Source of the DNA: a virus
IMG/VR virus record: IMGVR_UViG_3300010970_000109
Coordinates: 1,075 to 34,703 of that record
Strand: one strand, 5' to 3'
DNA: 33,629 nucleotides
Positions 2,966 through 7,452 of the stretch are shown piece by piece. Positions within the stretch are counted from its first letter, which is position 1; every line of letters starts with the position of its first letter. The notes beneath the pieces were generated by a model. It was not told the origin of the DNA and made no database searches. It was given only the letters and a program-made list of their open reading frames with translations. The translations under genes were made by a program, and so were the position numbers.

Positions 2966-3109
2966 TTAAAATAATGATGCTAAAAAACTGCCGATAGAAA
3001 TTCCTAATAAACCTATTGCAAATAATGTTCCGAATAGGATTCCTACGATTAGTACCGCCAACCATTCAACCCAAGTTGGAATTTTTTTATCAGCGTGCCA
3101 AAGTTTCAT
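2966..3109 (-). CDS. Small membrane protein, 47 aa
   Basis: An ATG at 3109 follows the strong ribosome site AAAAAGGAG (spacing 5) and opens a 47-codon frame. The protein has a short charged start (MKLWHADKKIPTW) and then one long or two short hydrophobic segments from about residue 16 to the end, with glycine-rich spacing. It has its own upstream TATAAT at 3141-3146. It is a single- or double-pass inner-membrane protein of unknown function; small early phage membrane proteins of this kind can modify host physiology or exclude other phages, but nothing here proves that. Confidence 0.65.
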   Translation of the reverse strand: MKLWHADKKIPTWVEWLAVLIVGILFGTLFAIGLLGISIGSFLASLF

Positions 3110-3140
3110 AAATGCTCCTTTTTGTGTTTAAGATATAACT

Positions 3141-3146
3141 ATTATA
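3141..3146 (-). promoter_or_regulatory. Candidate -10 element for the 47-aa membrane protein
   Basis: Minus-strand TATAAT within TCATCCATTATAATAGTTATATC, whose flanks match those at 2942 and 3657. No clear -35 is seen. Confidence 0.5.
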
Positions 3147-3154
3147 ATGGATGA

Positions 3155-3412
3155 TTATTTAACAATAAGTCCAGTTCCAACATATTCTTTTGCTTCAATT
3201 AGCATTTTTTCGTAATTTGAACGGAAAAATTCGTTAATTTTTGCATTGATAACATTAGCAAGCCATTCTTTTTGTTGCTCGTTATACCAATATCCTGTTA
3301 ATTGACCATCATCACTACGGACAAATTGCTCAAGGTCTAAATCTATGGCTTCCATATAAAGTTCTGGGTTAAGTTTTATATAGCCATCTTTGTAAGATTT
3401 GAATGGTTTCAT
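3155..3412 (-). CDS. Hypothetical small protein, 85 aa
   Basis: 85 aa, acidic and aromatic-rich, no membrane segment; predicted mostly helical (QQKEWLANVINAKINEFFRS and EKMLIEAKEYVG). The start is supported by the repeated leader ACGAAAAGGAAAT directly upstream of the ATG. It follows the 61-aa gene by 28 nt and probably shares its promoter at 3657. I do not recognise a family. Confidence 0.6.
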   Translation of the reverse strand: MKPFKSYKDGYIKLNPELYMEAIDLDLEQFVRSDDGQLTGYWYNEQQKEWLANVINAKINEFFRSNYEKMLIEAKEYVGTGLIVK

Positions 3413-3440
3413 TTTTATTTCCTTTTCGTAAGGTTAAAAA

Positions 3441-3626
3441 TTAAAATGCTAGGTTTTTGCAAATAGAAATTGCATCTGCTTTAGAAAAACAAGTATGTAA
3501 AACTTCACCGCTTTTTGCTATATACCAAGTTTTACCGCTAGGCTTTTTATAAAAATAAAAAACGCTGGATTCCTCGCTAGTTCCGATGAATCTGTATGTG
3601 TAACTGCATATTCTTTGGATAATCAT
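3441..3626 (-). CDS. Hypothetical small protein, 61 aa
   Basis: 61 aa, basic, with a YRFIGTSEESSVFYFYKKPSG segment suggesting a small beta-sheet domain and a C-terminal helix (SKADAISICKNLAF). Its leader contains CACGAAAAGGAAAT and its own TATAAT (3657-3662), giving a short 5' leader of about 25 nt. It is probably the first gene of a two-gene transcript with the 85-aa gene downstream. Function unknown. Confidence 0.6.
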   Translation of the reverse strand: MIIQRICSYTYRFIGTSEESSVFYFYKKPSGKTWYIAKSGEVLHTCFSKADAISICKNLAF

Positions 3627-3656
3627 TTTATTTCCTTTTCGTGTGGAAGATATACT

Positions 3657-3662
3657 ATTATA
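3657..3662 (-). promoter_or_regulatory. Candidate -10 element for the 61-aa gene
   Basis: Minus-strand TATAAT in TCATCCACTATAATAGTATATC, the third copy of this promoter type. The hairpin at 3670-3687 sits just upstream, where a -35 would be expected. Confidence 0.5.
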
Positions 3663-3669
3663 GTGGATG

Positions 3670-3694: not shown

Positions 3695-3925
3695 TTATGA
3701 ATTCTTTTGTGCGTGGACTAGGTTTCTAGTATCGGTGTATTCAAAAAAGTAATATTTTACTTGGTTAAGAATTTGATTTGCTTCTACTGTTGAACCGATT
3801 TCAATTAGGTGTTGAGCATCAGATAACATTCCAGCTAATCGCATATTGATGTTATAAGCGGTAGAAAAAGAGGATTCCAATTTTTCTGGTTGCATACCTA
3901 ACATTTGGTTTTCTTGGTTATTCAT
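3695..3925 (-). CDS. Hypothetical small helical protein, 76 aa
   Basis: 76 aa, no hydrophobic segment, and predicted helical from about residue 20 (AYNINMRLAGMLSDAQHLIE, then NQILNQVKYYFFEYTDT), perhaps a short helical hairpin. The leader is CCACGAAAAAGGAAG, one A longer than the other copies of the repeated leader. A good sigma70-like promoter (3971-3998) precedes it. Family not recognised. Confidence 0.6.
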   Translation of the reverse strand: MNNQENQMLGMQPEKLESSFSTAYNINMRLAGMLSDAQHLIEIGSTVEANQILNQVKYYFFEYTDTRNLVHAQKNS

Positions 3926-3970
3926 TTTTACTTCCTTTTTCGTGGTTAGGAGATTTCTCTCTATGAATTA

Positions 3971-4116: not shown

Positions 4117-4329
4117 TTAACGCTGACTTAATTCTTCAAGTCCTTTTTTGCAGTCTTGACAATCGCATGTAATAACATCCGTTTTTGATGCTTGTTTTAT
4201 TTCTGCAATAGTATCAAATCCTCTTACATGAACTAAATCATCCGAGAATCTGAAACCATGTGGCAACCATAAAAAATAAGCATCGCCATCTGCATCCACA
4301 TCACGCTTTATGTCCAGTTTGAATTTCAT
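4117..4329 (-). CDS. Hypothetical small protein with Cys pair motif, 70 aa
   Basis: 70 aa from the ATG at 4329, chosen because the repeated leader ACGAAAAGGAAAT ends 6 nt upstream; an in-frame ATG at 4362 lies upstream of that ribosome site. The sequence MKFKLDIKRDVDADGDAYFLWLP suggests a small beta-sheet N-terminus. Near the C-terminus CDCQDCKKG carries three Cys in C-x-C-x-x-C spacing, which could bind a metal but is too short to prove a zinc ribbon. The transcript starts at the TATAAT at 4386 and ends at a strong terminator, so this is a monocistronic unit. Function unknown. Confidence 0.6.
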   Translation of the reverse strand: MKFKLDIKRDVDADGDAYFLWLPHGFRFSDDLVHVRGFDTIAEIKQASKTDVITCDCQDCKKGLEELSQR

Positions 4330-4361
4330 TTGGATTTCCTTTTCGTAGGTTTTAAAGAGCA

Positions 4362-4381: not shown

Positions 4382-4385
4382 ATTC

Positions 4386-4391
4386 ATTATA
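4386..4391 (-). promoter_or_regulatory. Candidate -10 element of the 70-aa gene, palindromic
   Basis: Minus-strand TATAAT in the palindrome ATTATAAT (4386-4393), so a TATAAT is readable on both strands. No -35 is visible in either direction. Confidence 0.45.
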
Positions 4392-4443
4392 ATACTTCCC
4401 CCAAAAATGAGTGATGTTCAATTTTCGGTAGGTGAAATACATT

Positions 4444-4550
4444 TGGTGGGAGCAGAAAGCCACGAAAAGGAGGGTATTTAGCCCGTTAGTTTATAGTGAT
4501 AACGCACTGCAATCTGCTCCCATAGAGGGTTGAGGAGTTTCCTCCTCGGT
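4444..4550 (-). ncRNA. Candidate structured small RNA with anti-Shine-Dalgarno segment
   Basis: A gene-free 230-nt gap downstream of ssb. On the minus strand a 6-bp GAAA-loop hairpin (4547-4532) is followed by a 9-bp stem, TGGGAGCAG (4522-4514) with CTGCTCCCA (4455-4447), enclosing 58 nt. Inside are CGTTA/TAACG and GGG/CCC hairpins and an apparently unpaired CTCCTTTTCGTGG (4472-4460). The 3' side reads UGCUCCC-A-CCA, like a tRNA acceptor end, and the span from 4521 to 4444 is 78 nt, tRNA-sized, but no T-arm forms. The unpaired segment is complementary to the repeated leaders of neighbouring genes and contains CCUCCUUU, the same as the 16S rRNA anti-SD core. A TAAAATAG at 4562-4555 could be its promoter. 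Strand and transcription are inferred. Confidence 0.5.
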
Positions 4551-4564
4551 GTTGCTATTTTAAC

Positions 4565-4948
4565 TTAAAAAGGAATATCATCCGATAAGGCGGTTAGTTG
4601 CTCAGGGGTAGGCATTACCCTAGTGGTTGTAACTTCCTTTTTGCCCAACATCTGAATCTTATCAGCAATAATTTTGGTCGAATAGCGGTCAATACCATCC
4701 TTGGTATATTTTTCCGTTTTCATCTTGCCTTGCACAAATACTTGCGAACCTTTGGTTAAATATTGTCCAGAAATTTCTGCCAATTTACCAAATGCGGTTA
4801 CATTTACCCATTCTGTGCCCTCTTTGTCCTTGCTTTTCCATCCACAAGCTAAAGAAATATTTGCTACTGCATCATTTTGAGGTGTATAGCGTAACTCTAC
4901 ATCCTTGCCTAATCTACCGATAAATTGACATTGGTTTAAATCATTCAT
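4565..4948 (-). CDS. ssb: Single-stranded DNA-binding protein
   Basis: 127 aa with an N-terminal OB fold (residues about 1-100): LNQCQFIGRLGKDVELRYTP, ANISLACGWKSKDKEGTEWV, NVTAFGKLAEISGQYLTKGS and QVFVQGKMKTEKY are classic SSB segments. A short linker ends in the acidic tip DDIPF, which binds partner proteins in bacterial SSBs. It is shorter than host SSB (about 170 aa), as is usual for phage versions. The ATG overlaps the exonuclease stop by 8 nt, placing it in one transcript with exonuclease and SSAP, where it would coat ssDNA during replication and recombination. Confidence 0.93.
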   Translation of the reverse strand: MNDLNQCQFIGRLGKDVELRYTPQNDAVANISLACGWKSKDKEGTEWVNVTAFGKLAEISGQYLTKGSQVFVQGKMKTEKYTKDGIDRYSTKIIADKIQMLGKKEVTTTRVMPTPEQLTALSDDIPF

Positions 4949-5854: not shown

Positions 5855-6427
5855 TCATTGGGCATTTCCTTCCGCTTCTTTAGCAAGAGCCTCTAAATCC
5901 GCTTTTACATTATCTTTTGTTATTTGTAGCGTTTGTAGGGCATTTCTATCAGGTATACATTCTTTTACCGCATTTATATAAGCCATTTTTAATTGCTCAA
6001 TATTTGTGCAAGAATTTAAGGACTTTACATAAAAATCTACATCTATTGGTTCTGCTGGTGTGGAATCATCAGGTAAATCCTCGCCAGCGTAAATATATAA
6101 ACCAATACCAAAGCAAGCAATACATTTAGCAAGACACCGCATGGTGGCATCCGATATTTTGCGTGTATCGGGGTTTTTAATGGAATTATTTCGGTTATCC
6201 ATAACTGGTAACTGCATACGCATGGTTTTACCGAAAGCGGTTACATTACAAAACACCATAACTGTGTCATTCCAAACTTTAGGTTCTGGAAATTCCCAAG
6301 TTGCTTGTGGGTCTTGTTGTAAAAGGGTATCAACGGCATAAGTCCAAGAAAGATAGGATAAATTACCTTTCTTTTCTATATTTTCGCTAACATTGATTTT
6401 GCGTAAGGTATTAAAATCTATTGTCAT
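5855..6427 (-). CDS. DUF1071 (Sak3-like) single-strand annealing protein
   Basis: 190 aa. NVSENIEKKGNLSYLSWTYA, DPQATWEF, VFCNVTAFGKTMRMQLPVMD, SDATMRCLAKCIACFGIGLY and AGEDLP match the DUF1071 family, grouped with Sak3/Erf-like annealing proteins of phages. Role: anneals complementary ssDNA and cooperates with the nearby YqaJ exonuclease and SSB. Residues 130-190 are an acidic helical tail. Start: ATG overlapping the upstream stop (ATGA), with the repeated leader CCACGAAAAGGA 7 nt upstream and a TATAAT at 6458 inside the upstream gene. That gives it both coupled and independent expression routes. Confidence 0.85.
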   Translation of the reverse strand: MTIDFNTLRKINVSENIEKKGNLSYLSWTYAVDTLLQQDPQATWEFPEPKVWNDTVMVFCNVTAFGKTMRMQLPVMDNRNNSIKNPDTRKISDATMRCLAKCIACFGIGLYIYAGEDLPDDSTPAEPIDVDFYVKSLNSCTNIEQLKMAYINAVKECIPDRNALQTLQITKDNVKADLEALAKEAEGNAQ

Positions 6428-6615
6428 ACATTTTCCTTTTCGTGGTTTGGTACATCTATTATATCTGTCAATTCACAACTAGGCACATCTATATCGACAT
6501 TTTTTAAATTTTTATACGGATTAATTTGTGATAATTTTTTCCAAGCTTCATCTCTTGATTCAGCCATAATGGAAATAGTAACTACCGCATCTTCTGTAAA
6601 TATATATAAAGACAT
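6424..6615 (-). CDS. Hypothetical small protein, 63 aa
   Basis: 63 aa: MSLYIFTEDAVVTISIMAES, DEAWKKLSQINPYKNLKNVD and a Cys-containing C-terminal strand. The pattern suggests a single small alpha/beta domain. A ribosome site AAGGG precedes it in a leader that weakly resembles the repeated motif. It sits 9 nt after the 99-aa gene and overlaps the SSAP start (ATGA). Not recognised. Confidence 0.6.
   Translation of the reverse strand: MSLYIFTEDAVVTISIMAESRDEAWKKLSQINPYKNLKNVDIDVPSCELTDIIDVPNHEKENV
6458..6463 (-). promoter_or_regulatory. Candidate internal -10 element upstream of the SSAP gene
   Basis: Minus-strand TATAAT in CAGATATAATAGATG, inside the 3' end of the 63-aa gene. The context CAGATATAATAGAT is repeated at 6970. 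Confidence 0.45.
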
Positions 6616-6624
6616 GATTTTCCC

Positions 6625-6924
6625 TTAATCGTGTAATAAACCAGAGTTGTAATTGTCAATAGCGTGGTCTTCTGCTAACTTTTCCATATATTCGTAACTC
6701 ATAAAATAAAGTTTACGACCTAAGGCTTCCCAATTTTGCTGGTTTACAAAATCTATAATAGATGCTTGGTCTAATTCGTTTGCTTCTGCAATAGCTTCTG
6801 CTAAATGGTGCGTAAGTGCGGGGTTGTAATCTTCCGTTTTCAGCAATTCGTAGGTTCTTTCATCTATGAAATCTCCTGAATCGTCATCTTCTGGCTCATA
6901 ATACCTATCGTGCATTGACATCAT
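6625..6924 (-). CDS. Hypothetical acidic helical protein, 99 aa
   Basis: 99 aa, strongly acidic, no membrane segment, with helices from about residue 38 onward (ALTHHLAEAIAEANELDQAS, FMSYEYMEKLAEDHAIDNYN). First gene of the minus-strand recombination operon. The start at 6924 follows AAGGAG with 6-nt spacing, inside the longest copy of the repeated leader (CCACGAAAAGGAG). Its promoter -10 is at 6970. Family not recognised. Acidity and position fit an early regulatory or DNA-mimic role, but that is only a guess. Confidence 0.6.
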   Translation of the reverse strand: MMSMHDRYYEPEDDDSGDFIDERTYELLKTEDYNPALTHHLAEAIAEANELDQASIIDFVNQQNWEALGRKLYFMSYEYMEKLAEDHAIDNYNSGLLHD

Positions 6925-6969
6925 GCTTTTCTCCTTTTCGTGGTGAGTTAAGTTTTACTGCTAGAATCT

Positions 6970-6975
6970 ATTATA
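6970..6975 (-). promoter_or_regulatory. Candidate -10 element of the recombination operon
   Basis: Minus-strand TATAAT in CAGATATAATAGATTC, matching 6458. It lies in the 69-nt divergent gap between the minus and plus operons. The plus strand has only a weak TATTAT here. Confidence 0.5.
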
Positions 6976-6993
6976 TCTGAGAAAGCCTAAAAT

Positions 6994-7374: not shown

Positions 7375-7452
7375 GGAAAGGCTAGGGTAGCCCCTGAAAA
7401 GTTATCTAGTCAATAACTCGCCTTTCCCCTTACCGACTACCTTTGACAAAGG
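7375..7452 (+). ncRNA. Structured 5' leader upstream of the replication gene
   Basis: GGAAAGGC (7375-7382) pairs with GCCTTTCC (7420-7427). Inside are a 6-bp hairpin AGTTAT/ATAACT with a 7-nt loop (7400-7418) and a short GGG/CCC hairpin. An alternative GGCTA/TAGCC hairpin (7380-7392) competes with the outer stem. A separate CCTTT/AAAGG hairpin (7440-7452) covers the AAAGGA ribosome site of the next gene. The two-state arrangement looks like a cis-regulatory RNA; I do not recognise a known riboswitch class. Confidence 0.5.

Follow-up and report, generated by a model that had tools for sequence, protein, structure and literature searches.

A putative C4-like antisense RNA downstream of ssb, complementary to a leader tag on several early genes of environmental phages

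One class of bacterial small RNAs originates in the 3′ untranslated regions (UTRs) of protein-coding mRNAs, is released from them by processing, and acts on multiple targets by seed pairing over the Shine-Dalgarno (SD) sequence. A processing enzyme of relevance here, bacterial RNase P, reads the G-rich start of a stem together with an (A/G)CC directly after it, at the end of an acceptor stem. The closest described phage RNA is C4 of phages P1 and P7, which RNase P releases at the 5′ end of the P1 stem and which blocks ribosome sites (PMC5320573). In phage P1 its parts follow one another in the order stem P1, P2, P3, an unpaired CUGUCAA beside the 3′ strand of stem P1, and ACC, and CUGUCAA is the complement of the annotated a2 site TTGACAG. 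Phage-encoded trans-acting sRNAs, c4 RNA included, were reviewed in 2025 (PMC12197685), and the examples in those parts of the review considered here have host mRNAs, other sRNAs or single phage genes as their targets. They resemble the element described below in being phage-encoded small regulatory RNAs that act by base pairing, but none in the same parts of the review has a leader tag common to many phage genes, and our search of the open-access literature found no description of such a system.

An element in the 3′ UTR of ssb

The stretch of DNA analyzed, referred to as the window, is a 33.6-kb part of one IMG/VR virus record. On its minus strand it carries an early operon in which a Sak annealing protein, a YqaJ exonuclease and SSB are followed by small genes, and the element sits between ssb, which ends at 4565, and the next minus-strand gene at 4117-4329. 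The genes that follow the element encode small unknown proteins or DUF932 proteins and are not of the icd/ant antirepressor type. The locus comprises the following features.

4565-4948, minus strand: ssb gene (Pfam SSB, 2e-28), with the element in its 3′ UTR
4532-4547, minus strand: 5′ hairpin GAGGAG[GAAA]CUCCUC, probably outside the system
4445-4522, minus strand: whole element, a putative C4-like antisense RNA of ~78 nt, with homologues at other loci; the mature RNA is predicted to run from ~4522/4521 to 4445, with an ACC 3′ end
4513-4522, minus strand: 5′ strand of the closing stem P1, (U)GGGAGCAGA, supported by P1 covariation, with a predicted RNase P cut at its 5′ side
4495-4508, minus strand: P2 hairpin AGUG[CGUUAU]CACU, from comparative evidence
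4487-4494, minus strand: conserved A-rich linker AUAAACUA, UAAAAnCU in relatives
4472-4484, minus strand: P3 hairpin GGG[CUAAAUA]CCC, from comparative evidence
4460-4472, minus strand: unpaired antisense segment CUCCUUUUCGUGG, adjoining the P1 3′ strand, from sequence and leader complementarity
4447-4456, minus strand: 3′ strand of P1, UCUGCUCCC(A), read from the sequence
4444-4447, minus strand: 3′ ACC(A) tail after P1, (A/G)CC in nearly all relatives

P1 joins plus-strand positions 4448-4456 with 4513-4521, making 10 bp when the extra pair U4522-A4447 is counted; an earlier note on this DNA had recognized the closing stem but placed it one base off, at 4447-4455 with 4514-4522. The minus-strand segment CTCCTTTTCGTGG is located exactly at 4472-4460. 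Folding of the element gives z = −4.5 relative to dinucleotide shuffles, the minimum free energy structure of the single sequence favors a different inner pairing over P2, and single-sequence folds leave the antisense segment somewhat more exposed than other interior positions, its predicted accessibility being only moderate. The AGGAGG of the 5′ hairpin, for which the role of an off switch had been suggested, was rejected as such because the hairpin is not conserved among relatives; there is no room for it in many other members or in L002, the closest relative, where the gap between the ssb stop and the element is only 7 nt.

The ends of the element, GGGAGCA/UGCUCCC-A-CCA, had been likened to a tRNA acceptor. 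The likeness is real as sequence and would suit a degenerate phage tRNA, but ARAGORN and Rfam find no tRNA and no cloverleaf, homologues keep a different fold and do so without the final A, and the ends are those expected of an RNase P substrate such as C4, such that we give the tRNA interpretation virtually no weight. The sequence hints of an RNase P 5′ end are the G-start of P1, the (A/G)CC after P1 and the position just past the ssb stop. The distance from that stop to the element is less than ~50 nt in most members, and often 5-20 nt, which leaves little room for a promoter of the element's own, and intrinsic-terminator-like sequences lie 3′ of the element in many members. Hence, the RNA would most simply be the processed 3′ end of the ssb mRNA.

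In its 3′-UTR location, as well as in its presumed release by processing and its predicted pairing with the SD regions of several targets, the element resembles the 3′-UTR-derived sRNAs of bacteria. It differs from them in that many elements have a GC-rich closing stem and ACC at the end where a U-rich terminator tail would stand, and in being phage-borne with one tag common to all targets. The likeness to C4 (RF01695) extends to the length of ~77 nt, a P1 with a G-rich 5′ start after U/AU, the three-helix layout with inner P2 and P3, an antisense segment before the P1 3′ strand followed by ACC, and complementarity to the ribosome-binding region of phage mRNA. In contrast to C4, P1 of the element is shorter (~9-15 bp), and a single long antisense segment in the junction takes the place of the two in C4, b′ in the P3 loop and a′ in the junction; in the window element the tagged leaders are matched by the junction segment alone, and the P3 loop holds no second antisense segment of the b′ kind. 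The element is also found in the ssb 3′ UTR and has several genes on both strands as its predicted targets in trans, whereas C4 lies in an immunity operon and targets the adjacent icd-ant mRNA.

Homologous elements and conservation of the fold

The same architecture is present downstream of ssb at 54 IMG/VR loci with at least 30 distinct sequences. In related phage genomes, for which the earlier note had named a covariance search as a check, homologous elements follow ssb and keep their stems with changing letters. In L002 the ssb gene is 82% identical to that of the window and the element is retained with one U fewer (CCUUUCGUGG), while three of the four tagged leaders are one A shorter (ACGAAAGG); the exact DNA pattern TTGCAGTGCGTTATCACTATAAA, when searched in viral contigs, was found in the L002 contig only. 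Scanning for a closing stem around a stretch able to pair with leaders of the same locus showed the same arrangement in unrelated-looking contigs, and in many more once relatives of ssb had been collected. A relaxed scan, which covered every stem with leader complementarity in its interior, gave mostly chance matches, as did its controls, and the stricter scans are free of this.

A covariance model, R1, built from 20 elements recovered members outside the build as well as new ones (L144, L145, L175, L180, L205, and others), with no match in 413 kb of bacterial ssb loci and no element in annotated phages with similar ssb genes. No recognized element adjoins the relatives of P0001, and the ssb relatives of L208 and L051 provided no further leader code. 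The covariance model of C4, RF01695, matched none of 29 records at E ≤ 10 and, at its gathering score, neither the window nor any of 14 loci, while its positive control, c4 of phage P1, scores 68.8 bits; Rfam at gathering and E-value thresholds gave nothing relevant, and the reciprocal search with R1 found no C4 in phage P1. Because RF01695 fails on all members and the reciprocal search also fails, we do not file the element as C4.

The element and the leader tag occur together. Leaders of the form [AT]CGAAA+GG precede two or more genes in 45 of the 54 loci that carry the element vs 5 of 78 ssb loci without it, the five exceptions being L169-L173, where no element was found after ssb. Similar shapes with GGG...CCC closing stems and ACC/UCC tails follow ssb in L019/L421 (2401-2475), L004 (5453-5514) and L017 (5512-5584), with no recognizable leader match, and these may be relics, users of other targets, or unrelated. 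In L144 two stem-closed structures stand in tandem after ssb (3406-3474 and 3525-3592) with an intrinsic-terminator-like sequence between them, and only the first (3406-3474) contains the antisense segment. A tiny secreted-looking peptide is encoded between ssb and the element in several phages (L047, 7623-7754; L121, 4888-5013; L017), and follows the pattern MKK...CPPY..YGC...GKM.CGC in L047 and L121.

The fold is conserved in these members. P1 has a covariation score of 0.509 compared with 0.217 ± 0.031 for shuffled alignments, none of 500 being as high, and lies above all slid versions, in a test that is biased towards pairing because the elements were partly found through their stems. P2 and P3 played no part in finding the elements, and their arms pair in 95% (P2) and 91% (P3) of cases within an element vs 56 and 49%, respectively, between elements, these values being weaker evidence as the arms were registered by hand. 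The stem sequences are distinct in 14 of 16 cases for P2 and 15 of 16 for P3. RNAalifold on alignment A1 recovers P1 only, since loop lengths vary, which is why the arms were registered by hand. The P3 loops are variable, and P3 is absent in short members (~55-62 nt).

The leader tag and its co-variation with the RNA

The earlier note had listed six leaders of the window as complementary to the antisense segment, and all six hold.

6931-6943, minus strand: leader CCACGAAAAGGAG of gene 6625-6924, 13 nt complementary, duplex −23.5 kcal/mol
6434-6445, minus strand: leader CCACGAAAAGGA of gene 5855-6427 (Sak ssDNA annealing protein), 12 nt complementary
3633-3643, minus strand: leader CACGAAAAGGA of gene 3441-3626, 11 nt complementary
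4337-4346, minus strand: leader ACGAAAAGGA of gene 4117-4329, 10 nt complementary
3420-3429, minus strand: leader ACGAAAAGGA of gene 3155-3412, 10 nt complementary
3933-3945, minus strand: leader CCACGAAAAAGGA, with one extra A, of gene 3695-3925, 9 nt contiguous, 13 with one bulge

On both strands of the 33.6-kb window the 9-mer ACGAAAAGG has six copies, five in gene leaders and one in the element, and the sixth leader carries ACGAAAAAGG in its place; no opposite-strand gene of the window has a leader match of at least 9 nt. Pairing spans the SD itself (AAGGA), with predicted RNA-leader duplexes of −15.6 to −23.5 kcal/mol in the window compared with −6.2 to −9.3 kcal/mol for pairing of the leaders with a generic 16S tail. 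The identity of part of the segment with the anti-SD of 16S rRNA, also pointed out previously, is thus present but is a by-product of complementing an SD, and the pairing of element and leader is far stronger than that of the 16S tail. TATAAT-like −10 sequences stand shortly before most of the tagged leaders (minus strand, 6940-6990, 6445-6475, 4385-4395, 3640-3665 and 3120-3150), and the tag is thus near the start of short 5′ UTRs from apparent individual promoters. Two further minus-strand leaders, that of the DUF932-like gene 1931-2899 (2899-2925, ACACAAAAAAGG) and that of the 3109 ORF (3109-3130, ACACAAAAAGGAGC), look like decayed or weaker tags.

In other lineages the leaders have different letters and are matched by the unpaired segment of their own element, the tag being CCACGAAAAGGA, CCACGAAAGGA, AACGAAAAAG, TATCGAAAAGGA, AACGAAAAGGAG or CAGTGAAAGGTG. 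The As of the leader track the Us of the RNA, with 3, 4 or 5 of the one facing 3, 4 or 5 of the other. The codes of leader and RNA are as follows.

Leader CCACGAAAAGGA, RNA UCCUUUUCGUGG: window, L132, L168, L181
Leader CCACGAAAGG, RNA CCUUUCGUGG: L002, L203, L219
Leader CUCACGAAAGGU, RNA ACCUUUCGUGAG: L193
Leader UCACGAAAGGAG, RNA CUCCUUUCGUGA, also as TCACGAAAGGAG and CTCCTTTCGTGA: L204
Leader AACGAAAAGGAG, RNA CUCCUUUUCGUU, also as AACGAAAAGGAG and CTCCTTTTCGTT: L134
Leader AACGAAAAAG, RNA CUUUUUCGUU: L051
Leader UCGAAAAGGA, RNA UCCUUUUCGA, also as TCGAAAAGGA and TCCTTTTCGA: L224
Leader CAGUGAAAGGUG, RNA CACCUUUCACUG, also as CAGTGAAAGGTG and CACCTTTCACTG: L208

When genes with a perfect complement of at least 10 nt were summed over 17 representatives, RNAs and leaders of the same phage gave 40, whereas random re-pairing gave a mean of 16.3 and a maximum of 35, and none of 20,000 shuffles reached 40, a count that is not a strict P-value because the representatives are not phylogenetically independent. 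By these comparisons, the leader-RNA complementarity is greater than chance would give, as it recurs with different letters in many related phages. An alternative is that a protein binds the leader motif, as a DNA operator or a ribosome-binding consensus specific to the phage, and that the copy in the element is an inverted site without RNA pairing, as might be expected of a motif that recurs ahead of many genes and close to promoter-like sequences. However, in every recognized element the motif is antisense to the RNA strand and at the same position in the fold, the leader copies are sense-oriented at a near-fixed distance from the ATG and over the SD, and a DNA site needs neither such a fixed arrangement nor a stem that co-varies with changing letters. 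We consider this protein-bound site highly improbable.

In the long or complete genomes (the window, L138, L168, L196, and L224) each copy of the 9-nt core stands directly before an ATG gene or is that of the element, which holds the core once per genome in the whole genomes checked; one leader copy of L138 was counted twice because the two ends of that record carry the same sequence. Recurrent targets by this measure are a small acidic protein encoded before sak, the Sak or Erf-like protein itself, a DUF932 protein (Pfam 7.5e-55), small membrane or unknown proteins and, on the opposite strand, a divergent 250-residue protein beginning MHYFQFEIKEW. The opposite-strand leader of L138, CCACGAAAAGGAGT, matches the RNA; the divergent gene of the window at 7443, with a start similar to MHYFQFEIKEW, matches primosomal-protein families.

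These targets bear on whether the element could act in cis only, as a 3′-UTR stabilizer or attenuator of ssb mRNA pairing with the next leader ~120-330 nt downstream, with all other matches reflecting a common ribosome-binding consensus. The element is indeed close behind ssb and the next tagged leader is usually only 150-400 nt downstream, but many members have an intrinsic-terminator-like sequence, a promoter-like TATAAT or both between the two, and upstream and opposite-strand genes are matched as well or better, which makes an exclusively cis role distinctly unlikely. Tagged leaders on opposite-strand genes could be reached by the RNA only in trans. The co-variation of RNA and leaders across lineages strongly supports the core proposal of the earlier note, that of an RNA which acts in trans and can pair with the ribosome sites of several early phage genes.

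Predicted mode of action

We propose, with good though not full confidence, that a C4-like RNA of ~78 nt is cut from the ssb mRNA, pairs in trans with the tagged leaders and lowers the translation of the whole set. The element closes the early recombination operon (sak - yqaJ exonuclease - ssb) at its 3′ end and would be co-transcribed with ssb, and the RNA would be cut out, most likely by the RNase P of the host, on the 5′ side of stem P1. The junction of the released RNA would then display 10-13 nt complementary to the leader tag, CCACGAAAAGGA in the window, which covers the SD of about six early genes, and pairing in trans would hide the ribosome site and so reduce translation of the entire gene set. 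Early replication and recombination genes would in this way come under negative feedback, delayed until the ssb operon has been transcribed. Transcription, processing by RNase P and repression as the outcome are predictions of this scheme, and we infer the direction of regulation from the masking of the SD only. The RNA could instead pair with the leaders and activate or stabilize the mRNAs, or mark them for cleavage by RNase III, with no block of the ribosome; the pairing that this calls for is supported, and the tag is near the start of 5′ UTRs that in several cases seemingly have their own promoters. Yet the SD is covered, the pairing is much stronger than that with 16S and would normally be repressive, and the analogous C4 RNA represses (PMC5320573), so that an activating or RNase III-dependent mode seems unlikely to us.

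Repression by the paired RNA is also what the comparison with C4 favors, as the element is built like C4 and probably works like it, with one long antisense segment and many targets, and it is in this sense that we call it a putative C4-like, multi-target antisense RNA. We lean towards the broader view that it represents a widespread and previously undescribed class of phage regulator, in which early genes on both strands carry one short tag across their ribosome sites, one RNA released by RNase P reads it, and tag and RNA drift together. If true, each phage lineage would have a post-transcriptional 'operator-repressor' code private to itself. Protein repressors and promoters are the usual explanation of phage regulons, whereas the regulon here is apparently set by a common ribosome-site tag and one antisense RNA, for which the natural co-variation in many lineages constitutes a built-in genetic test. 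Such a class would carry the C4 idea, that of one immunity switch in P1/P7, to the early replication and recombination genes of environmental phages and would tie the expression of ssb to early-gene shut-off, and a private pair of tag and RNA could influence how related phages interact in one cell.

The window contains a second structured stretch, of a different kind and not matched by R1, on the plus strand at 7375-7427 after a RusA-like gene. It has an 8-bp closing stem (GGAAAGGC/GCCTTTCC) and inner hairpins, followed by CC, and its loop CTAGTCA could pair with a GACTA that lies a short way downstream and ahead of the replication-initiator-like gene at 7443.
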